DNA from: an uncultured Gemmatimonadota bacterium
GTDB taxonomy: Bacteria > Gemmatimonadota > Gemmatimonadetes > Gemmatimonadales > Gemmatimonadaceae
NCBI GenBank assembly: GCA_902826615.1
Contig: CADEFN010000004.1
Coordinates: 124,001-188,000 of the forward strand
Length of the DNA stretch: 64,000 nucleotides
Direction: 5' to 3'
The notes under the pieces were generated by a model. That model was not told the origin of the DNA. It ran no database searches and saw nothing but the letters and a program-made list of their open reading frames with translations. A program made the translations under genes and the position numbers. This document shows, one piece after another, positions 8,742 through 64,000 of this stretch; position 1 is the first letter of the stretch; every line of letters starts with the position of its first letter.

Positions 8742-10118
8742 TTATTCGGATGCCGACGGGAGGTGGGTGACGCGTTGCACGATACCCATCGTCAGCCACA
8801 ACCCGAAGCCTAACGCATCGACACTCAGGCGTTCGTCATGCCCGTGCATGCGATCCTCGTCATCCTGCGTCAGGGGAAAGGGAAGCACACCATAACAGGC
8901 GATCCCGGCGGCACGGAGGGTAGCCGAGTCGGTCGCGCCGGTGCTGAGGTATGGCACCGTGATCGCATCGGGTGCCAGCGCGGTGACTGCCTCACGGATG
9001 GACTGGAACATCGGTGCCGACGGCGAGGAGGCTGGCGCATCGAGGCCACTCGACTTCACGCGGAACTCCACGTTTTCGTCATCCACCACGGCGCGTAGTC
9101 GACCGAGAATCCCTTCAACCGGCTCACCGGGCATCAGCCGGATGTTGAGCGTCGCTGCGGCTTCGGTGGGAATCACATTCGACCGGATTCCTCCGCTGAT
9201 GAGGGTTGGAGAAATCCCATTGCGAAGCACCGCGCCGAACGATGGTACCATCTCCAACTGACTGGCTCCGCGCGCTTCCCGCGCCGGATCGCCACTGGCC
9301 ACGTCGGCCATGGCCTCTCGCAGCGACGCATCGGGCCAAACCGCCGAGAGCTGCCCAAAAAAGCCACGGGTCACGTCGAACAAGGCCAGCGCTTCCCGAT
9401 GGTCTGCGATGCGGACGAGCGCGCGTACGAGCCGGGTGACGGCATTCCCATCGTGCGGCACGGCGGCGTGCCCACCGGGTCCCCTCGCGGTGACTACCAC
9501 GTTGTGGGGCACTTTCTCGGCGCACTGCACCGCGGCGTACACCGTCCGCCCATCGATCACCCGCACGCGACCACCTTCATTGAGCGCAAGCTCCGCATCG
9601 ATGAGCTCGCCATGGTTGGCCATCACCCAGTCGATGCCCCAGTCCCCTCCAGCCTCCTCGTCGGACGTCGCGAGGAAGATGAGGTCTCGCTCGGGGAGCA
9701 CACCGGCTTCAGTCAGCGCCTGCATTTGCAAGGTGGCGTGCAGGTTGGTCACCAGCATGCCTTTGTCGTCTATGGACCCGCGTCCGTAAATGAACCCATC
9801 GACGATTTCGCCGCCAAACGGCTGGTAGCGCCACTTGTCCTTCTCCACCCCGACGACGTCCATGTGGGCCATGAGGAGGAGCGGGCGTTTCGTCCCGCGG
9901 CCTCGCACGCGGGCGACAACTGCCCCGCGCCCCGGTGCCGGCTCGAAGAGCTGCGACTCTACCCTATGCCGCAACAGCTTGTCGTGCAGGTAGCGGGCGA
10001 CGCCGAGTTCGTTGCCCGGCGGGTTCACCGACTCCAGACGAATGAGCGCCTGGAGATCCTGAACGGCATCCCAGAGAACGGACTCGCGGTCCGAATCAGA
10101 CAAACGAGAGAGAAACAT
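8742..10118 (-). CDS. M20 family metallopeptidase
   Basis: A protein of 458 residues from the ATG at 10118, which has a GGGGA element 8 bases upstream. An in-frame TTG at 10139 is a weaker alternative. Zinc-binding motifs of the M20/ArgE/DapE family are present: MAHMDVVGV (metal-binding His and Asp), DDKGML (bridging Asp), SDEEAGGD (catalytic Glu pair) and a late His in DRMHGHDERL. The dimerisation lid domain lies between residues about 200 and 330 (VVVTARGPGGHAAVPHDGNA). It probably acts as a cytoplasmic dipeptidase or carboxypeptidase-like hydrolase; the exact substrate is unknown. Confidence 0.9.
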   Translation of the reverse strand: MFLSRLSDSDRESVLWDAVQDLQALIRLESVNPPGNELGVARYLHDKLLRHRVESQLFEPAPGRGAVVARVRGRGTKRPLLLMAHMDVVGVEKDKWRYQPFGGEIVDGFIYGRGSIDDKGMLVTNLHATLQMQALTEAGVLPERDLIFLATSDEEAGGDWGIDWVMANHGELIDAELALNEGGRVRVIDGRTVYAAVQCAEKVPHNVVVTARGPGGHAAVPHDGNAVTRLVRALVRIADHREALALFDVTRGFFGQLSAVWPDASLREAMADVASGDPAREARGASQLEMVPSFGAVLRNGISPTLISGGIRSNVIPTEAAATLNIRLMPGEPVEGILGRLRAVVDDENVEFRVKSSGLDAPASSPSAPMFQSIREAVTALAPDAITVPYLSTGATDSATLRAAGIACYGVLPFPLTQDDEDRMHGHDERLSVDALGFGLWLTMGIVQRVTHLPSASE

Positions 10119-53743: not shown

Positions 53744-55861
53744 TTATTTCGCCTTGCTGACAATCTCTTCGGCCTTGCTCTTCGGCACTTCCTCGTAGTG
53801 CGAGAATTCCATCGAGTACACCGCCCGGCCCTGGGTCATCGACCGCAGACGGGTGGAGTACCCGAACATCTCGCCTAACGGCACCGTGGAGGCAATCACC
53901 TGCGCCTCACCACGCTGCATCATCCCGCCGATCTTGCCGCGGCGCGACGACAGGTCGCCGAGGACGTCGCCCATGTACTGCTCGGGCGACACAACCTCGA
54001 CCTTCATCATGGGCTCGAGCAGGATGGGGCTGGCCTTGGCCGCGCCCTCCTTCACCGCCATTGAACCCGCAATCTTGAATGCCATTTCCGACGAGTCGAC
54101 GTCGTGGTACGAGCCGTACACCAGCTCGACCTTCACGTCCACCATCGGGTAGCCGGCCAGGACGCCGTTTTCCAGCGCTTCCTTGATCCCCTGCTCGACC
54201 GGCCCAATGTACTCACGCGGAATGACACCACCGACAATCTTGTCCTCGAACACGAAGCCATGGCCCTGTTCGCCCGGCATCACGTTGATGACCACGTGGC
54301 CGTACTGACCCTTACCGCCCGACTGGCGAATGAACTTCCCTTCGACCTTGTCGACGCGCTTCTTGATCGTTTCGCGATAGGCCACCTGCGGGCGACCCAC
54401 GTTGGCGTCGACCTTGAACTCGCGCATCATGCGGTCGACGATGATCTCGAGGTGTAACTCCCCCATCCCCGCGATGATCGTCTGACCCGTTTCGGTGTCC
54501 GTGTGCACCCGGAACGTCGGGTCTTCTTCTGCCAGCTTGTTGAGCGCAATCCCGAGCTTGTCCTGATCGGCCTTCGTCTTCGGCTCGATCGCGACCTCGA
54601 TGACCGGCATCGGGAACTTCATCGCCTCGAGGATGATCGGCTTCTCGTCGTCACACAGGGTGTCGCCGGTCCGCGTGTCCTTGAGCCCGATGGCGGCGGC
54701 GATGTCGCCCGCCCGCACTTCAGGAATCTCCTCGCGCTTGTTCGCATGCATCTGCAGCAGGCGGCCGATGCGCTCGCGCTTGTCCTTCGTCGAGTTGTAC
54801 ACGTGGCTGCCCGATGCGAGCACCCCGGAGTACACGCGGAAGAACGTCAGCTTTCCGACGAACGGATCGGTCGCGATCTTGAACGCCAGCGCCGCGAACG
54901 GCGCCTCGTCGCTCACCGCGCGCGTGTCAAACGTCTCGTCGTGGTGCGGCAGGTGGCCCTGGATGGCTTCGACGTCCACCGGTGCCGGCAGGAAGTCGAT
55001 CACCGCGTCGAGCAACGCCTGCACACCCTTGTTCTTGAAGGACGCACCGCACAGGATCGGCGTGAAACGCATCGTACACGTCGCCTTGCGGATCAGTCCG
55101 CGAATTTCATCGACGGAGAGCTCCTCGCCGGCCAGATAGCGCTCCATCAGCGCATCGTCATGCTCCACCACCGCTTCGATGAGCTCGTGACGAGCCTGCT
55201 CCACACGATCGCGGAATTCGTCACTCACGTCGCGGACGTCAAACGTCTTGCCTAACGTCTCGTTGTGGAAGATGTACTCCTTCCGCTCAACGATGTCGAT
55301 GTGTCCTGTGAACAGCTCGCCCGACCCGACCGGCAGCTGAACGGGGTATGCGCCCTTCGTCAGGCGATCCCGGATCATCTCGACGCATCGCTCAAAGTTC
55401 GCCCCAACGCGATCCATCTTGTTCGCGAAGATCATGCGCGGAACCTTGTACCGGTCCGCCTGGCGCCACACCGTCTCGGTCTGCGGCTCCACACCGGCCA
55501 CGGAATCCAGCAGGGCAACCGCGCCGTCCAGCACGCGCAGGGAGCGCTCCACCTCGACGGTGAAGTCCACGTGCCCGGGGGTGTCGATGATGTTGATGCG
55601 GTACTCCGGCCCCTCACCCTTGTCCTGGCTCGAGCCGTGGCGCTTCCAGAAACAGGTCGTCGCGGCCGACGTGATCGTGATGCCACGCTCCTGCTCCTGC
55701 TCCATCCAGTCCATCGTGGCAGCGCCATCGTGCACTTCGCCAATCTTGTGGCTCTTGCCCGTGTAGTACAGGATGCGCTCGGTCGTGGTCGTTTTCCCGG
55801 CATCAATGTGGGCCATGATGCCGATGTTGCGATAATGGTCGAGCGGCGTCGAGCGAGGCAT
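53744..55861 (-). CDS. fusA: Elongation factor G
   Basis: A protein of 705 residues. It drives ribosomal translocation. GTPase motifs: [15 protein letters not shown] (G1), [11 protein letters not shown] (G2), [17 protein letters not shown] (G3), [10 protein letters not shown] (G4). Domain IV and V strings are [16 protein letters not shown] and [15 protein letters not shown]. The next gene upstream should be rpsG, but here a lasso-peptide cluster intervenes. Confidence 0.99.
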
Positions 55862-56236
55862 ATCAGTCGTCTGTATCGTTAGGTCCCCACTTGCGCGGGG
55901 ATTCCATCAGCAAAAACGCGGGTGGACCTGCACCCCATACCTTGGGGCCGGTATCCATCCGCCACCGCCGGGTACACGCGCCGCTGCTGCACACGTGGGG
56001 ACCCATGGCGCGCCAGACCACCAGCGGCCTGACGTTGAGTTGTCCTGCGTCGCTTTTCGGGAGCCGGCTACCTCTGAGAGGACCGGGCGGTTAACCACAC
56101 CCCCACGAAATCCGTGGGCCCATAGGTGCCGACGCGCAGTTTCGTCGGCAATTCAGTCATTCCCCGCGGTCGGTTACGGGAGCCGAGGAATATCGAAGTG
56201 GCGGATGTTGAAGTCAATCCCCCACTTGGGACACTT
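55862..56236 (-). other. Structured intergenic region upstream of fusA
   Basis: No convincing coding sequence in these 375 bases. Read on the minus strand towards fusA, several hairpins can form: TGCCGACG/CGTCGGCA (8 bp, near 56127-56150), CCCACG/CGTGGG (56102-56118), CCCC/GGGG around 55933-55947, and, about 20 bases before the fusA start, a 7-bp stem TCCCCGC/GTGGGGA closed by a GCAA tetraloop (55884-55901). A copy of the CGTTAGGT octamer variant follows at 55877. It should hold the promoter and 5' leader of fusA now that the gene is separated from rpsG. I could not place a -35/-10 pair with confidence. Confidence 0.5.
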
Positions 56237-57460
56237 TCAAACGCCCGATCCAGCCCTCGTCACGCCACTCAGGTAACGCCCCCACTCTCCAAGATGGGCG
56301 AGCTGCCCGCGGAAGCGCGCCAGCTGGCTCAAAGGCTCCTGAGCTCCCGCGTGTACCAGGGGATCTTCGTCCCACGGGCGCCCCTCACCGACTTTTGCTG
56401 GCTCAAGGGCCAGGCTCCAGAGCAGCCGCCTCCACCTCTCCGATGGACAAGGCACAATTCGAGACACCACGTGCGCAGAAAGGTGGCGTTCGATCAGCCC
56501 TTCCAGCAGCGCCGTGCGCGGGCGCCGCAGGCCCCGCAGGAACGCCTCGGGAGCGTCGTGCCCCCCAGCAAGCAGATCCACCAGCCGGTAGCTCCAGAAC
56601 ACCGCCGACTGCGCCTGATACCGCCCTGCCACTGTAGCGACCGCGTCCCAGTCGACGCCGCCACGAGTCAGCGCGCGCAGATCGCGCGCAAGCCGCCAAA
56701 GCCCGAAGGACGCCAGGTGGGCCCACGCAAAGTGGACGGCGAGGTGCACAATCATGTGGGGAGCGTCCAGGACGTACACCTCTCCGTCCAGCCCACTCGC
56801 CCGCCGCCCGGCCTTGCGCGCTTCGTGGAACGAAAGCGCAAACGGATGCCCGCTCATGTTGAGGGCGGTGTGGATCTCGAGCTTGGCCCCGGTGCGTCGC
56901 TGATCGAAAAGGGGCGGCAGGTGGTGGTGGCTCAAATAGTGGTCTTTGGGAAAGGCCTGGGCATCCCAGGCCCAGCCATGCTCGATCGCGAGCTGCCACA
57001 GCCGCTCGGCATCATCGGGCGCCACCAGCAAGTCCAGATCGCCCATCGGGCGGTCCCCAAACGACGCATAGCTCGTCATGGCCAGACCAGCACCCTTGAG
57101 CATGACAACCGGCACGCCGTGCTCCTTGCAGAGCCGAAGCATTTCCAGAAGCCGCTCGCGCAGCATCAACCCTCGAAACTCGGAGACCGTGCTCACGCGA
57201 TCAAGTGCCACGGCGATCTCTGGAGAGGGTGCCGCACCCAGCGCACGCAAGCGACGCCAGCTCCAAGGGAGGCTGCGCTCCCATTCGGCCAGAATCAGCA
57301 GCTGCTCCCAGTCAAGCGGCCGCTGGAGCCGCGCACGAATGCGCGCATCCACTGCGTCCGGCCCGGCCGTCAGGAAAACGAGCTTGGCCTCATCTGGAAG
57401 GAGAGCGCCCTGCGAGGAATCGTCGGTCACGAGAGGTGATGACCGGTCAGGAGTGAGCAC
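56237..57460 (-). CDS. Nucleotidyltransferase-family protein of lasso cluster
   Basis: A protein of 407 residues, GTG start at 57460, 6 bases after the permease stop. The polymerase-beta-like nucleotidyltransferase pattern is visible: VVMLKGAG (residues about 118-125) and PMGDLDLLV with Asp141 and Asp143. It matches the large family of putative nucleotidyltransferases common in lasso clusters that also carry an HPr-kinase-like enzyme. By context it may add a nucleotide or otherwise extend the phosphorylated tail of the peptide, but no reaction is established here. It is the last gene of the lasso cluster, next to the fusA leader. Confidence 0.8.
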   Translation of the reverse strand: MLTPDRSSPLVTDDSSQGALLPDEAKLVFLTAGPDAVDARIRARLQRPLDWEQLLILAEWERSLPWSWRRLRALGAAPSPEIAVALDRVSTVSEFRGLMLRERLLEMLRLCKEHGVPVVMLKGAGLAMTSYASFGDRPMGDLDLLVAPDDAERLWQLAIEHGWAWDAQAFPKDHYLSHHHLPPLFDQRRTGAKLEIHTALNMSGHPFALSFHEARKAGRRASGLDGEVYVLDAPHMIVHLAVHFAWAHLASFGLWRLARDLRALTRGGVDWDAVATVAGRYQAQSAVFWSYRLVDLLAGGHDAPEAFLRGLRRPRTALLEGLIERHLSAHVVSRIVPCPSERWRRLLWSLALEPAKVGEGRPWDEDPLVHAGAQEPLSQLARFRGQLAHLGEWGRYLSGVTRAGSGV

Positions 57461-57466
57461 ATGTGG

Positions 57467-58273
57467 CTACGCGCGAGCAAGCGTACCAGTGACTCGGGCG
57501 CGCCGTAAGGCCGACCCAAACAACACCAATCCCAACCCACAAACCGTTACGGTCATGATCACCAGGATGCCCAGGTCCGATCCAGCTTCAGCAAAGCTCT
57601 TGCCGTCAAGAAGAATGCGGCGCAACGCGCGCAGACCATAGCTGGCCGGAACGAAATTGGAAAGCACCTGCAATCCACCGGGGATGACGGACGTGGGGTA
57701 AAACGCGCCGCCAAGGAGGGTTGTCCCCACCACAAATATCTGGCGCAGGGGACCCTCAGTACGGAAAGCAATAACCATGGCCGCGCCGCACAAACCGACG
57801 CCCCAGTGCAACACCATGATCAGCAGCAGGACAAACAACCCGGGGATAATCGCCGCGCCGGCGATGCGTGCCCCCAACGCCCAGCCGGCAATCATGACGA
57901 GGAGCGCGCGCAATAAGGCCCAGAGAATCTGATACGCCGAGAGCCCAATGAGCCATGTGAGCCAGGGCGTCCGTGTCAGGAGAAGTCCCTCGAGAAAGCC
58001 GCTCCCGATCCCGGCCTGTACCACACCCGGCAAAATGCTGATGCACGAACTCACCAGGGAAATGATCATGGTGCCGGTCAGCACGAAGGCAAAGTACTGC
58101 GTGCCTTCCTGCGCAATCCGCGGTGCCATCGTTCCCTGCAGTGCGTTGGCCACGAAGTACACCGGCACGACCGTAAACCCAAGCGCCAGCAGCGACAGCA
58201 CCGTCTGCGTGCGATACGTCGAGAAGGTCAGCCATTCGGCACGCAGGAGGGCCCCTACCGCTCGCCAGTTCAT
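57467..58273 (-). CDS. ABC transporter permease (ABC-2 type) of lasso cluster
   Basis: A protein of 268 residues with six predicted membrane helices (for example TVLSLLALGFTVVPVYFVANAL, GTMIISLVSSCISILPGVVQAGI, PGLFVLLLIMVLHWGVGLCGAAMVI, and a final LGILVIMTVTVCGLGLVLFGSAL). The fold and the FYPTSVIPGGLQVLSNFVPASYGL loop before the last helices are typical of ABC-2 drug or lipid exporters. It overlaps the ATPase stop by 4 bases. With the ATPase it probably exports the finished peptide or gives immunity, replacing the single-chain LasD-type exporter. Confidence 0.85.
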   Translation of the reverse strand: MNWRAVGALLRAEWLTFSTYRTQTVLSLLALGFTVVPVYFVANALQGTMAPRIAQEGTQYFAFVLTGTMIISLVSSCISILPGVVQAGIGSGFLEGLLLTRTPWLTWLIGLSAYQILWALLRALLVMIAGWALGARIAGAAIIPGLFVLLLIMVLHWGVGLCGAAMVIAFRTEGPLRQIFVVGTTLLGGAFYPTSVIPGGLQVLSNFVPASYGLRALRRILLDGKSFAEAGSDLGILVIMTVTVCGLGLVLFGSALRRARVTGTLARA

Positions 58274-59280
58274 GCGCGCACCTGCGTGACCCGCTCGAGC
58301 AGGTCCGCCAGGGAAGCCCGCTCGGCCGTGAACTCGGACACTTCCACGCCGGCACTAACCAATTTCTGCAGGACTTGTGCGCCGGACGTCGCACCACCGT
58401 CGAGAAAGACGTGAACGTCGCCCCACCCATCACCAGCGGGAGCGACCGGGCTTACGCGGCGCACAAAGGGCGAGTGCGTGAGCGAGGCAAACGCGGGATG
58501 CGACGGCTCACGCGTTCGCACGGTCACCCGTGGCTCGACATATCGTGCCGCGAGTTCGCGCGCCGGGCCCTCTGCCACGAGGACCCCGTGATGAAGGATG
58601 GCGACCCGGTCACACAGATCGAACGCCTCGTCCGCGTCGTGTGTCGCAAGGACAACTGCGGACTGCCGCTTCTTCGCCAGCTCTTCCCGCAGAAAGGTGC
58701 GAAAGGCGCGCGCCGAGATCGGGTCGAGACTGCGCGTGGGTTCGTCGAGAAGGAGCACCCGCGGCTGGGCCAGCAACGCTCGCGCAACAAACAGCCGCTG
58801 AATCATGCCTGACGAGTATTCCCCCACCATGCGATCGGCCGCGTCCGCGAGACCAACAACCTCGAGCACCGTCGCAATCTTGCCGTGCAGCTCTGACTCG
58901 GCAAGGCGGTTCAGTGTGCCAAAGAGCCGAAGATTCTCGCGGGCCGAGAGTCGCCAGAAGAGACCGCGTTCGGTGGCAAGGGAGATGGACACGAGATCAC
59001 GCACCGCCGTCGCCTCTCGTACCACGTCGTGGCCACCCACCTGGGCGCTGCCGCTGTCAGGAATCAGCAGCGTCGACAGCATCTTCATGAGCGTGGTCTT
59101 GCCGGCACCGTTCACACCGAGTAACCCGTAAAACTCGCCAGGGGCCACGCGGAAACTCACGCCGCGCACCACCTCGAGAGTCCTTGCCGGCGTTCCACGG
59201 AGCAGGTCCCGGAAACCCCGGAGCGGATGGAAATGCTTTTTGAGGTCGTCGACGACGACCAGCGCCGCCGTATCCGTCAC
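58270..59280 (-). CDS. ABC transporter ATP-binding protein of lasso cluster
   Basis: A protein of 336 residues. Walker [10 protein letters not shown] (residues 55-63), a degenerate signature ([17 protein letters not shown]), Walker [15 protein letters not shown] and the H-loop [11 protein letters not shown]. The DrrA/CcmA-like type pairs with ABC-2 permeases. The last ~100 residues form an additional domain. It starts at 59280, overlapping the kinase stop as ATGA, and its own stop overlaps the permease start, so the three genes are translationally coupled. Confidence 0.9.
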
Positions 59281-60218
59281 GGCACGCTACCAACGCCCGG
59301 CGGAGATGCATGCCAGCCTTTGAGCTGCTCGACTGCCGAGTCGAGCCTCCCCAGGTCTCGGCGAATACGCAGGCGGTACACCGGTACACGGGAAGCCACG
59401 TCGGCCATCTGATGAAAGTGCGCCGTCGCCTCGGGGCCTCGCAGTAGACTCCCCAGCTTGCTCTGCTCAATCAGCGCCATTGTCGCCAGGGGCGCGGGCA
59501 GCAACTCACGCTCTATTTCGGGGACGGAGGGGTCGGCCGGCGCCGGGGAGAGCAGATACGCAGCTGCAAAGCGCACCGAGGTCACTTCCTCTTCGAAGTG
59601 GGACGCGATCAGCTTGCGATCATCGGCCCCCTCATGCGCCCCTTCCAGCTCGATTGCCGTGGCTGAATCTCGCAGCAGCCGAATGCGCGTCACCCCAGGC
59701 CGCAGCCGTGGAGCCGCCCCACGAACAATCGGCAGAGTGTCGTCGGTCAGGACCCGAGCCCCCCCTCTGGCAAGCCCGGCAGCAATAGTCGATTTGCCGA
59801 ACCCCTTGGGCCCCATGAACGACACCCCTTCGCCACCGATGGACACCGCGCTCGCATGAAGACTGGGGACCCCCTGGAGGTGAAAGAGCATGGCCATGAC
59901 CCTTCCCAGCACATCAGCCCGCATACCCTCCCTCAGATGGTCATCTGCGCCGTCCGGGGCATACCAGACTATCTGACCACTGGCGGTGATATCGAAGCGC
60001 CCAGTGTCATCGTAGATGAGGGAGATCCCTTCTGCGGTCCGATATGACCGCACCTTCGTTTCGCCGAAGACGATGTCCTCGCCGACAAGCTCCAGCGGGC
60101 CAACTGGGGGCTCATGCCCCACCGCGAGGTTCCATTCATTTTCTTGATCGGACGCCTGCAGTTCCGTGAATGGGAAAGCGGACTCGAGGGTCCCGCCAAA
60201 TACTCGGTAGCTGTGCAC
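59277..60218 (-). CDS. HPr-kinase-like lasso peptide kinase
   Basis: A protein of 313 residues, GTG start at 60218. The C-terminal half is HPr kinase/phosphorylase-like: P-loop GPKGFGKST (residues 136-144) with DD at 159-160 (LTDDTLP) and HASAVSIGGEG before it. The N-terminal ~110 residues replace the HprK N domain. In paeninodin-type clusters such kinases phosphorylate the C-terminal Ser of the lasso precursor, and the precursor here ends in Ser. A 13-bp palindrome and a TATAGT box (60329-60334, minus strand) precede the gene, so it may have its own promoter. Confidence 0.85.
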   Translation of the reverse strand: MHSYRVFGGTLESAFPFTELQASDQENEWNLAVGHEPPVGPLELVGEDIVFGETKVRSYRTAEGISLIYDDTGRFDITASGQIVWYAPDGADDHLREGMRADVLGRVMAMLFHLQGVPSLHASAVSIGGEGVSFMGPKGFGKSTIAAGLARGGARVLTDDTLPIVRGAAPRLRPGVTRIRLLRDSATAIELEGAHEGADDRKLIASHFEEEVTSVRFAAAYLLSPAPADPSVPEIERELLPAPLATMALIEQSKLGSLLRGPEATAHFHQMADVASRVPVYRLRIRRDLGRLDSAVEQLKGWHASPPGVGSVP

Positions 60219-60269
60219 GGATTACCGGATAGCTGAGCCAGCGAAACATGTTTGATGCAGTCCCGCAAC

Positions 60270-60282
60270 GGTCACTGTGACC
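60270..60282. promoter_or_regulatory. Perfect palindrome upstream of kinase gene
   Basis: GGTCACTGTGACC, a perfect 6-bp inverted repeat around a central base, centred 58 bases upstream of the kinase start and 47 bases downstream of a TATAGT box. It has the form of a dimeric repressor or activator site, but the regulator is unknown. Confidence 0.45.
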
Positions 60283-60382
60283 TGTGGCGTACGCACGATG
60301 GTGACACGCCTCATACGAGTCTGCGCCCACTATAGTCACCCAAAGGGTTCTTGCAGTGAAGGGGTGGCCATGTCGCTTCCCG

Positions 60383-60418
60383 AAAAAGAAAAAGGGCGCA
60401 CCTTGTGAGGCGCGCCCT
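60383..60418 (-). terminator. Intrinsic terminator/attenuator after lasso precursor
   Basis: On the minus strand: stem AGGGCGC/GCGCCCT extended by inner CC/GG pairs, then TTTTTCTTTTT. It lies 34 bases after the precursor stop. Such hairpins often follow lasso precursor genes so that precursor mRNA exceeds that of the enzymes; here it sits between the precursor and the kinase-transporter genes. Confidence 0.9.
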
Positions 60419-60451
60419 CCAACTGTGACCCGGTTAAGGCGATAAACTGCC

Positions 60452-60616
60452 TTACGAGCGGACGATGCAGGCGCCCGGTCCCGTCGGACTCTTGGGATTC
60501 GGGTTGCACTGGATGTCGCCGATGCCCGGAAGTGAATCCATTCCAGGAACCGTCTTATCCGTAAGGGTCAGCTCTCGGAAACTGCCGAAACGCTGAAGTG
60601 TCGGTGCTTCGTACAT
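60452..60616 (-). CDS. Lasso peptide precursor
   Basis: A protein of 54 residues from the ATG at 60616 with an excellent Shine-Dalgarno (GGGAGGAAATACCG). The leader fits the canonical lasso pattern Y-x2-P-x-L-x3-G-x5-T: Tyr2, Pro5, Leu7, Gly11, Thr17. Taking Thr17 as the conserved -2 Thr, the core is residues 19-54: N-terminal Thr, with Asp27 exactly at core position 9 as ring acceptor. This is the only Thr choice giving an acidic residue at 8 or 9; another leads to Asp at position 7 from Lys21. The tail has Cys37 and Cys50, which may form a disulphide, is Pro/Gly/Asn-rich, and ends in Ser54, the likely phosphorylation site. At 36 residues the core is long for a lasso peptide. Confidence 0.85.
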   Translation of the reverse strand: MYEAPTLQRFGSFRELTLTDKTVPGMDSLPGIGDIQCNPNPKSPTGPGACIVRS

Positions 60617-60660
60617 CGGTATTTCCTCCCAGTAAAGTGTCCTTCCTCGCTTTAGAACCA

Positions 60661-60677
60661 AGCAACTCGCGTGCCAA
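60661..60677 (-). promoter_or_regulatory. Sigma-54 (RpoN) -24/-12 promoter of the lasso precursor
   Basis: The minus strand reads TTGGCACGCGAGTTGCT, a full match to the sigma-54 consensus TTGGCACG-N4-TTGCW, with GG and GC 12 bases apart. Transcription would start near 60650, giving a ~34-base leader before the precursor ATG. It lies in the 146-base gap between cyclase and precursor. Confidence 0.88.
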
Positions 60678-60723
60678 CCGCTCACGCCGCTTGCCCACTG
60701 TGTGAGCCGCAACGGAACTTAGA

Positions 60724-60743
60724 TGTGCGAATCCTCATGCACA
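60724..60743. promoter_or_regulatory. Candidate enhancer dyad upstream of the sigma-54 promoter
   Basis: Inverted repeat TGTGC-N10-GCACA about 60 bases upstream of the -24/-12 element. Sigma-54 promoters need an upstream activator site, and this is the only clear dyad in the gap, but it is closer than most known enhancers. Confidence 0.35.
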
Positions 60744-60762
60744 ATCGGATTTTCTATATGGA

Positions 60763-62658
60763 TCAGTAAGGGAATTGGCGTAGCCACTCCTCGCATGTCA
60801 GCGCGAGATAGAGCTGGACGTACTGGAGGTGATCCATCGTGGTCAGGTTGTCGAGGTATCGGAGCATGAGGGGTACGTCGACGAGGCCCATTTGGCTAAG
60901 CCGCCAGGCCGAAGCAGGCCCCAGGGCCGTGGCCAGGGCCGGGGCCTCGACTCGCATCGAGCGCTGGAACTCACCCCCTGGCGTTCCAGTCTTGGAGGGC
61001 CTGGGCGCGATGACCCAGTCGGGCAGTACGCCCCGCATGGCCTCCCTCAGGAGCGGTTTGGGCTGCCCCGCGATTCCGCGCTCTGAGACGGGTCTCGAGG
61101 CCGCGAACTCAACAATACGACGGTCAAGCAAGGGGGACCGGAGCTCGACGCCTTCATCCAGGGCCATACCGGTTGCCCAGCTGATGGCGCGAGGGAAATA
61201 GGGAGTCTCCACGTACCAACGGGACTCATACGCTGACGGGCTTTCGAGGAATCTTCTTGGTGGCTCGCGGCGAAGCCGTCTTCGGACCAACGGATCCTCC
61301 CGCCATCGGGACTGGATCCAGGGCGCCTGGGTCTGCCAAGTGGCGTCCTCGTCTGAACGACCCCTGGCTCTCGACTGCCAGTATCGAACGCGCTCCGGCA
61401 GCCAGGGCAGCAGCCCCAGCCTCACGATTGTGCGGAACCCTGAGTCGCCGTAACCCTGGAGCTCGCGCACGAGTTCGGTGATCCGACCTCTCACCAGGTA
61501 ATCCGCCAGGTACGACTTGGAGATGCCAAACAACTGGTCGCCCCCGTAGCCATCCAGCGCCATTCCAGCGCCAAGGTGCCGAGCCTTCCTCGCCATAGTT
61601 CGGTTCTTGGCTTCGAAGGTGTGGGCATAGGGGTCGTCGCGGTGGGCCGCCCACCCCTTGATGTCGCCAAAGAGACCAAGGGTGGCACTCGGAATCCAAT
61701 TGACGTCCAGGGAAAACCGGTCGGAGATGGCCTGCACAAAATGATCTTCCCGCCCCATATCCCCTTCGGGGTACGAGACGGTGATTGGGGCAATCTTCCT
61801 GGGTGTTGCCGCTCCCCTCTCCATGGCGAGACATGCGCCCGCCAGAACTGCGGGTGAATCCGCTCCACCGCTCAGCCAGATCGCTACCGGGTCCCCCGAG
61901 AGCCTTACGGCAGTTGCCTGTACGATCAGCTCCCTGAGTTCTTCGCCCCCCGCCTTGAGATTGGGGGCACCAGAGACTCGAAAGGCCGGGGGGTGCCAGA
62001 CGCCTCGCGGCTGGAGGCCATGGCGCGGCTGCCAAACAAGCGTCGTCGCCGCCGGGACGGGAAAAACACCGACAAATCCGGTTGCCAGACTTCCGCCGAG
62101 GAGGCCGCTCAGGGCCGAGACCACGGCGGGCAGATTCAGCTGCGCGTTTACTCTGGGATGCGCCGCCACGCTGCGGGCCGCCGAGGCCACAACAATTGAG
62201 GCGCCGGCAACAGCATAGTGTAGAGGGCGCCTGCCGAGATGGTCGCGACCCAGGATCAGCCGCTCCTTGCCGGGATCCCAACACGCGAATGCGAAGTCGC
62301 CCTCGAGGTGCTGGATGCAGTCAGCGCCCCACACGGCGCATGCCTGAACCACAAGGCCACGGTCTGTGACCGCCGTCGAGGCCACGCCTGCTGCGGAGAG
62401 TTTGCGCCTCAGGTCCGCCTGGTAGTAGAGGCACCCATCGAGTGCCACGATCACCCCGTTACTGCGCTCCAGCGGCTGCGTCGCACCAAAAACGGCGGGT
62501 TCCCAATCGGTCATCGCCCCCGCCAGAGCGCACCCTGGTGCCGCCTCGGTACTGACGGTTCCCCCCCGCGAACGATATCCGCTCGAAAGAAGCGCGGACG
62601 CCTGCGCCCGAAGTTCGCCCTCTGGCTCCGGACCGGCGACGACCCCGATCGCCGTCAT
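60763..62658 (-). CDS. Lasso cyclase (asparagine synthetase-like, C protein)
   Basis: A protein of 631 residues from the ATG at 62658, which overlaps the B2 stop as ATGA. It has a class II amidotransferase-like N-terminal domain without the catalytic Cys2 (starts MTAIGVV), then a synthetase domain with the ATP-pyrophosphatase loop SGGADS at 263-268 and DGYGGDQLFG. In lasso biosynthesis it adenylates the ring Asp/Glu side chain and drives attack by the core N terminus. The C terminus (YVQLYLALTCEEWLRQF) is usual. It is followed by the precursor gene rather than preceded by it. Confidence 0.93.
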   Translation of the reverse strand: MTAIGVVAGPEPEGELRAQASALLSSGYRSRGGTVSTEAAPGCALAGAMTDWEPAVFGATQPLERSNGVIVALDGCLYYQADLRRKLSAAGVASTAVTDRGLVVQACAVWGADCIQHLEGDFAFACWDPGKERLILGRDHLGRRPLHYAVAGASIVVASAARSVAAHPRVNAQLNLPAVVSALSGLLGGSLATGFVGVFPVPAATTLVWQPRHGLQPRGVWHPPAFRVSGAPNLKAGGEELRELIVQATAVRLSGDPVAIWLSGGADSPAVLAGACLAMERGAATPRKIAPITVSYPEGDMGREDHFVQAISDRFSLDVNWIPSATLGLFGDIKGWAAHRDDPYAHTFEAKNRTMARKARHLGAGMALDGYGGDQLFGISKSYLADYLVRGRITELVRELQGYGDSGFRTIVRLGLLPWLPERVRYWQSRARGRSDEDATWQTQAPWIQSRWREDPLVRRRLRREPPRRFLESPSAYESRWYVETPYFPRAISWATGMALDEGVELRSPLLDRRIVEFAASRPVSERGIAGQPKPLLREAMRGVLPDWVIAPRPSKTGTPGGEFQRSMRVEAPALATALGPASAWRLSQMGLVDVPLMLRYLDNLTTMDHLQYVQLYLALTCEEWLRQFPY

Positions 62659-63101
62659 CGCAGGTCGGAGAGCTTGACTGGAATAGCCTGGTAGCCGGAG
62701 ACGTGGGCTTCGTCGTCCCCAAGGATTTCTCCGCAGAGTTCCACCCAGGCGTGTGCGGCAAACTTTCCGTCCTGCCGCGCCACACCAACACGCACGGCCG
62801 CTCCCTTCACTCCTTCGGCTTCTAGACGTTGGGTGATTGCCATGGCGCGTACCAGGCACGTTGGGCGAAAGACACCCCTTCGCGATGCCCTCATGACACC
62901 CTGCGCAATCAGTCTTGCTCTGCGCCGGTCGTCGGGCTCGAGCGAAGTGACGGCGTCGGCGCTTCCGGGATCAACCAGCCCTCCAACCGGAACAGACCTC
63001 AGGCTCTTTTGCGCCCTCAAGAGCGCCAGCTGGCCAAGAGCGATGGCCTTGAGCTCCGTGAATGAGGCGCGCCGGAGACTACGGAGTGCGTCCAGCATCC
63101 G
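62655..63101 (-). CDS. Lasso leader peptidase (transglutaminase-like B2 protein)
   Basis: About 148 residues from the ATG at 63101; an in-frame ATG at 63122 is an alternative and both overlap the B1 gene. Catalytic triad of the transglutaminase-like family: Cys81 (FRPTCLVRA), His116 (AAHAWVEL) and Asp128 (LGDD), with the His-to-Asp spacing of 12 as in McjB. It cleaves the leader after the conserved Thr-x pair, aided by B1. Its stop overlaps the cyclase start. Confidence 0.9.
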   Translation of the reverse strand, partial: RMLDALRSLRRASFTELKAIALGQLALLRAQKSLRSVPVGGLVDPGSADAVTSLEPDDRRRARLIAQGVMRASRRGVFRPTCLVRAMAITQRLEAEGVKGAAVRVGVARQDGKFAAHAWVELCGEILGDDEAHVSGYQAIPVKLSDLR

Positions 63102-63402
63102 GTGCCGAGGCCGACCCGCCATCGGCCGCGACGACAAGTCCACTCGCGAGTAAATCGCGGAGGAAGTTGCGCACGTCCTTCGCCAGGACCTCAGGCGCCA
63201 CATCCTTGAAGCGATCCGAAAGCTTGCGGCAGAGCCCCTCCACGGTATCCGCCGTGGGTAAGGCTTCCCAAATGATGGTCCCGACCGGATTCAGGCCGAA
63301 GTAGACCTCGGAGTCACTCGAAAACAACACGCCCCCGTCGGCCATCGCACGGAAGATGGCCGTTGGTGAAGGGCGCGGGAGGGGGGTCTCCGGAGTGGTC
63401 AC
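63079..63402 (-). CDS. PqqD-like leader-binding protein (lasso B1/RRE)
   Basis: A protein of 107 residues, GTG start at 63402. The PqqD/RiPP recognition fold is visible: DGGVLFSSDSEVYFGLNPVGTIIWEAL (residues about 22-48, quoted in part) and LCRKLSDRF...LAKDVRNFLRDLLASGLV. It binds the Tyr/Pro/Leu/Gly leader pattern and brings the precursor to B2. It is the first gene of the lasso cluster, 175 bases downstream of rpsG. Confidence 0.9.
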   Translation of the reverse strand: MTTPETPLPRPSPTAIFRAMADGGVLFSSDSEVYFGLNPVGTIIWEALPTADTVEGLCRKLSDRFKDVAPEVLAKDVRNFLRDLLASGLVVAADGGSASAPDAGRTP

Positions 63403-63577
63403 TTGAGGGATGAGACTAACGCTTCAAAGGAGCGTTTGCGAGAGCGGGAGGAATTATTGAACGCAACATCCTCATGTCGCCTCGGACGCCGGGCTTTCTT
63501 TGGACGGCCCAGCGTTGCCTCCGTCACGACAACGGCCAGCTCCGGGTGACACGCGGAGCTGGCTGGAACAACGACCG
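63403..63577 (-). other. Junction between rpsG and the lasso cluster
   Basis: This 175-base gap holds a strong hairpin right after rpsG (CCAGCTCCG/CGGAGCTGG, 63536-63562) and a second, AACGCT/AGCGTT, just before the B1 start (63419-63437). The first has no T-run. No clear sigma-70 or sigma-54 promoter is evident, so the B1-B2-cyclase genes may depend on read-through from the ribosomal genes. Confidence 0.5.
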
Positions 63578-64000
63578 CTACCAGCGATAGTGCGCGAAGG
63601 CCTTGTTGGCTTCAGCCATGCGGTGCGTGTCTTCCTTCTTCTTGATGGCATTGCCCTCACCCTTCGAGGCAGAGATCACCTCGGCGGCGAGTTTTTCGGC
63701 CATGGACTTCTCGTTCCGATCGCGGGAGTACGAGAGGAGCCAGCGCATGGCGAGTGCGGTCCGGCGTTCCGGGCGAACTTCGACGGGCACCTGGTAGGTT
63801 GCACCACCAACGCGCCGCGACTTGACCTCGATCACCGGCTTGAGGTTCGCCAGGGCCTGCTTGAAAATGTTCACGCCCGGCTGGGCGGTCCGTGACTCGA
63901 CGAGATCCATGGCGCCGTAGAAGATGCGTTCGGCGGTGGACTTCTTTCCCTGGAACATCAGGGAGTTGATGAACTTGGAAACAGTCTGGCTGTCATAGCG
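63578..64000 (-). CDS. rpsG: 30S ribosomal protein S7 (5' end outside window)
   Basis: About 140 C-terminal residues are visible; the frame continues past the window edge ([21 protein letters not shown], in part, is encoded at the edge), so about 15 N-terminal residues are missing. Signatures: [11 protein letters not shown]-like segment ([20 protein letters not shown]) and [14 protein letters not shown], ending KAFAHYRW. S7 binds the 16S 3' domain. In nearly all bacteria fusA follows directly; here a lasso cluster intervenes. Confidence 0.97.

Follow-up and report, generated by a model that had tools for sequence, protein, structure and literature searches.

The lasso precursor gene of this stretch lies downstream of a sequence that is very likely a genuine sigma-54 promoter, and sites of the same kind precede lasso precursors across the class. 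The element itself, its conservation, its spacing-specific enrichment across the class, a genomic RpoN, genomic enhancer-binding proteins (bEBPs), and a terminator after the precursor gene are established here. No transcript or protein data are available, and the activity of the promoter is inferred. The sigma-54 site is likely a trait that lasso precursors have lineage-wide, and this is the interesting part. The window referred to below is the whole 64-kb stretch analysed (C4:124001-188000). Its relevant features are collected in Table 1.

The window contains a cluster complete for a lasso peptide, composed of a precursor (A), B1, B2, and C. The genes are shown, while a threaded macrolactam product is inferred. 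On the same strand, the order is B1, B2, C, A, HPr-kinase-like, ABC ATPase, permease, and nucleotidyltransferase-like. The precursor leader scores 28.9 bits against NF033521 (cut-off 19) and meets the pattern YxxPxLxxxGxxxxLT. M1, Y2, P5, G11, R14, L16, and T17 are invariant among the aligned precursors. The core can be assigned only by reading. If Thr17 is placed at position -2, the arrangement in most homologues (where Asp8 would close the ring), the core possibly starts at Thr19 with Asp9 closing the ring; this rule does not clearly fit the rest of the genus. PADLOC models gave no match for the three cluster proteins tried.

Table 1. Features of the lasso precursor region, in window coordinates.
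Feature	Position	Strand	Basis
Putative sigma-54 -24/-12 promoter element, TTGGCACG-N4-TTGCT	60661..60677	-	13/13 match, genome-unique, kept in 6/7 close precursors
Predicted transcription start, ~60650	60649..60651	-	Fixed distance from -12; inferred, unmeasured
Ribosome-binding site, GGGAGG	60625..60630	-	Sequence
Lasso precursor gene A, 54 aa	60452..60616	-	NF033521 leader above cut-off; homologues in family and class
Intrinsic terminator after A	60391..60420	-	13-bp stem and U-rich tail
Sigma-70-like site before B1	63453..63480	-	Consensus scan only, 9/12
Leader-binding protein B1 (PqqD-like; RRE)	63079..63402	-	PF05402 above cut-off
Protease B2, start codon uncertain	62655..63122	-	NF033537 above cut-off; PF13471
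Cyclase C (asparagine-synthetase-like), immediately 5' of A	60763..62658	-	PF00733, PF13537; NF033535 below cut-off
HPr-kinase-like protein	59277..60218	-	Weak PF07475 and TIGR04352, both below cut-off
ABC transporter ATPase	58270..59280	-	PF00005
ABC transporter permease	57467..58273	-	PF01061
Nucleotidyltransferase-like protein (NTP_transf_5)	56237..57460	-	PF14907

The maturation genes B1, B2, and C sit within the str operon, between rpsG and fusA. This nesting of a lasso cluster between rpsG and fusA (53744-64000 of the window) is common to several genera of the family (loci L062, L064, L071, L074, L076, L186, and L193). In the neighboring families f2 and f3, rpsG and fusA are adjacent, with a gap of 139-332 bp. 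The junction is open in the source family, where other genes are inserted as well, and it resembles an insertion hotspot.

Read on the minus strand, positions 60677-60661 are TTGGCACGCGAGTTGCT, that is, TTGGCACG-CGAG-TTGCT. This sequence matches 13 out of 13 specified positions of YTGGCACG-N4-TTGCW with GG-N10-GC spacing, and is located 61 nucleotides upstream of the precursor ATG (60616). The inferred start near 60650 would give a 5' UTR of approximately 34 nucleotides. An exact search of the 5.9 Mb genome gives a single occurrence of TTGGCACGCGAGTTGCT and none of its reversed control, with about 0.2 occurrences expected from base count alone. Among random 150-nucleotide segments of comparable DNA, 0.03% contain a site of at least 12/13, and 0 of 14,400 contain a 13/13 site. 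The looser pattern TGGCNNGN4TTGCW matches the genome 10 times, versus 33 times for the reversed pattern. The other strict sigma-54-like sites of the genome are mostly intragenic, and therefore no regulon could be read from them as a control. A preliminary description of this DNA had claimed a full match to the -24/-12 consensus, and the right distance from a strong ribosome-binding site; both claims held.

Homologous precursors were retrieved from the family, and seven with enough upstream sequence, from the source genus and the genus of G015, were compared. With the cyclase as query only four distant loci were recovered, and the comparison was made from genome searches instead. Six of the seven close precursors have a site, with TGGC-N7-TTGC at -51 to -61: TTGGCACGCGAGTTGCT in the window (-61), TTGGCAAGGAAGTTGCT in G001 (-55), GTGGCCCGCGACTTGCA and TTGGCCTGGGAATTGCG before the orphan and cluster precursors of G002 (both -57), CTGGCCCGGGTCTTGCC in G003 (-59), and GTGGCCCAGGAGTTGCT in G015 (-51). 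When the six are aligned, TGGC-N7-TTGC is the only clear conserved block upstream of the ribosome-binding site, and the flanks have diverged. At random positions of the same loci, a site of at least 10/13 in the -51 to -61 band arises in 0.19% of cases. The seventh precursor (G003:C704, source genus) has no site of at least 10/13.

The orphan precursor of G002 (contig C2, L063 ~9902-10066) has the element and no cluster around it. Orphan precursors without maturation genes on nearby DNA were seen in L063, in L069 (5139-5300), and on contigs of G044 and G041 (L133, L135, and L137). Several orphans have sigma-54-like sites. Those of G044 and G041 are short (~35 aa) and have a C-terminal YHRS.

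A profile (A1) built from the close precursors matched 44 of the 179 family genomes and 51 of the 394 class genomes sampled. After removal of near-duplicates, 77 precursors, each with 200 nucleotides of upstream sequence, formed the scoring set. Sites of at least 10/13 are present before 27 of the 77, versus a mean of 2.8 in dinucleotide shuffles (maximum 8 in 200). The same upstream sequences give two sites on the opposite strand and one when reversed. Excluding the source genus and G015 leaves 21 of 70 precursors with a site, where 2.1 are expected. The enrichment is specific to the spacer, since N4 gives 27 sites, as against 1 to 5 for each of the other spacers between N0 and N8. It is also specific to position. 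There are 27 sites in the first 200 nucleotides upstream, then 7, then 1 farther up, and 1 within and beyond the gene. When all trinucleotide pairs were searched without bias, GGC-N7-TTG ranked first and GGC-N8-TGC second, both of which are the -24/-12 pair.

Sites of at least 10/13 were found in 15 of 32 genera, over four families, and about half of the sampled genera have none. One of the 15 genera (g4) is to be discounted, as its matches (G007 and G121, at ~-166) lie within the B2 coding sequence. Most qualifying sites are not in a coding-looking frame by a crude test, and some of the class-wide sites may be chance or coding matches. Sites at -84 to -99 precede all six precursors of genus g45, some of these sites falling under the 10/13 threshold, so the true share of precursors with a site is possibly above 27/77. 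Relatedness was only partly removed by dereplication, and therefore 27/77 and the related counts are not independent trials.

The other genes of the cluster were scored at the same loci. None of 64 upstream sequences of B1, B2, C, ABC, and permease genes contains a site of at least 10/13, while such sites precede 3 of 18 HPr-kinase-like genes and 2 of 12 nucleotidyltransferase-like genes. In the window, no 10/13 site was found upstream of B1, B2, C, or the HPr-kinase-like, ABC, and permease genes. A 10/13 sigma-54-like site, ACGGCAAGAGCTTTGCT (57590-57606), is located inside the permease gene, 146 nucleotides before the nucleotidyltransferase-like gene, and a 10/13 site of G001 has almost the same offset (-143). 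The ACGGCAAGAGCTTTGCT match probably reflects coding constraint.

The genome encodes one RpoN (PF04552 at C7:53961-54437) with an intact RpoN box, ARRTVAKYR. Across precursor-bearing genomes, rpoN is present in 51 of 54, and in 37 of 37 that are nearly complete and clean. Thirteen strong bEBP domains (PF00158) were identified in the genome, none of them within the window. No bEBP gene was found beside lasso clusters in the flanks examined, and searches for dyads and inverted repeats as a shared activator-binding site returned nothing above shuffles. The activator therefore probably acts in trans; its identity and signal are undetermined. An AT-rich stretch, TGTTTATTAA, is common to G303 and G230 (L107 and L108; genus g90) approximately 25 nucleotides before the -24 element. 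It could be a site for a bending protein or an activator.

Hairpins like the one after A (60420-60391) also occur downstream of the precursor in several relatives. A scan of 56-64 kb for sigma-70-like sites returned only two, before B1 and before fusA, which are consensus matches only; none was found before A. From the terminator after A, a short, monocistronic precursor mRNA is inferred, and separate expression of the enzymes is the simplest and likely reading, although both rest on sequence alone. In precursor-first clusters (for example, G230, G303, and G430), the same type of site could possibly drive the whole cluster.

Three other explanations were considered, and all appear very unlikely. 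In the first, a housekeeping sigma-70-type promoter, such as TTGGCA-N17-TAAAGC overlapping the element, drives the precursor and the likeness to sigma-54 is incidental. TTGGCA matches five of six positions of the -35 hexamer, TAAAGC follows 17 nucleotides on, and a dual promoter cannot be excluded. However, the conserved positions are the GG and GC at sigma-54 spacing, and the spacer-specific enrichment across the class also speaks against this reading. TTGGCA-N17-TAAAGC was rejected because the TAAAGC region is unconserved and the sigma-70 scan reported nothing there. In the second, read-through from rpsG-B1-B2-C mainly transcribes the precursor, and the element is minor or vestigial. A follows C on the same strand, and the interval between the two contains no terminator-like site. 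Against this, the element is maintained amid diverging flanks, and it precedes the G002 orphan, where the lack of a surrounding cluster means that read-through from a lasso operon cannot explain it. The third, rated lowest, is that RpoN binds here but is not activated, and instead blocks or represses read-through into the precursor. Closed complexes of sigma-54 are stable in the absence of an activator, and no activator site was found, but activation is the better fit to an element that lies just upstream of a strong ribosome-binding site and of a gene bounded by a terminator, and that also precedes orphans.

The preferred reading, a sigma-54 promoter, agrees with known promoters of this type. 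Like those of glnA, nif, and flagellar genes, it has the -24/-12 sequence, GG-N10-GC spacing, and a short (here predicted) 5' UTR, in a genome with RpoN and bEBPs. It differs in that the target is a lasso precursor, no bEBP is linked, and no activator site was identified. Predicted sigma-54 promoters have been described in PKS/NRPS clusters, and one of them, the oxytetracycline oxyB promoter, has been assayed in E. coli (PMC3665592). Those cases share the location of a sigma-54 promoter within a natural-product cluster. They do not include lasso peptides. In the present case, the gene behind the promoter is the precursor gene itself, and conservation extends over many genera, as checked with spacer and strand controls. 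Like the clusters of microcin J25 (mcjABCD) and capistruin (capABCD), this one has a precursor, protease, cyclase, and exporter. Unlike in those, B is split into B1 and B2, the precursor follows C, and there are additional genes for HPr-kinase-like and nucleotidyltransferase-like proteins.

Control of lasso biosynthetic gene expression has been reviewed as poorly understood. The same review ties expression of the microcin J25/capistruin type to iron or nutrient state and ScmR and does not mention sigma-54 (PMC6963729). The main text of a 2025 cross-phylum regulon study does not include lasso peptides or RiPPs (PMC12316311). In the open-access literature searched (subscription literature was outside the scope), there was no report of sigma-54/RpoN control of a lasso peptide, and papers naming sigma-54/RpoN with a lasso peptide or RiPP were incidental co-mentions only. 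The promoter type and the cluster type are both known; their combination was not found described in that literature.

The remaining claims of the preliminary description can now be judged. It had stated that the other cluster genes do not share this promoter, which held, the sole 10/13 match upstream of those genes in the window (before the NTP_transf_5 gene) being intragenic in the permease. It had also placed the activator ATPase outside the window (0 of the 13 bEBP domains are there) and called RpoN control of a lasso precursor apparently undescribed, which held within the open-access literature searched. The search it proposed, for the same element before related lasso precursors, was strongly positive, both in close precursors and class-wide. 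The observation is confirmed, with a stronger case than was then known, and every checkable part of the reading held. Expression, meaning 5'-end mapping and rpoN dependence, is inferred only.

In the proposed mechanism, the element at 60677-60661 would be a functional sigma-54 (RpoN) promoter that serves only the lasso precursor. RNA polymerase with RpoN would be parked there as a closed complex, to be opened by an enhancer-binding ATPase whose gene lies elsewhere. Activation would then give a short mRNA (~60650 to 60385) that carries the precursor alone and stops at the intrinsic terminator. The B1, B2, and C genes, which follow rpsG in the str operon and have their own sigma-70-like site, would be expressed independently of the precursor, and precursor supply would therefore be the gated step, apart from the enzymes. 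This explanation as a whole, sigma-54 and a trans-acting activator gating precursor supply, is very likely correct, with the driving of transcription, the start site, and the separate enzyme expression being inferred.

Because a sigma-54 promoter is strictly activator-dependent, the cluster is predicted to stay silent under laboratory conditions as long as the right enhancer-binding protein is inactive. Finding or activating that protein, or swapping the promoter, offers a practical handle to wake the cluster, and the question of which signal calls for the lasso peptide narrows to 13 candidate activators in one genome. A bolder reading is that the lasso precursors of the class, including orphans, are a sigma-54 regulon, switched on by a single enhancer-binding protein, or a small number of them, acting in trans and sensing a signal. 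The maturation enzymes would have a supply of their own, which in one family comes from within the ribosomal str operon. This reading is slightly more likely to prove wrong than right. If it is true, the lasso peptide would be a signal-gated secreted product. The finding adds a secreted peptide to the idea of sigma-54 controlling the cell exterior (PMC3162934).
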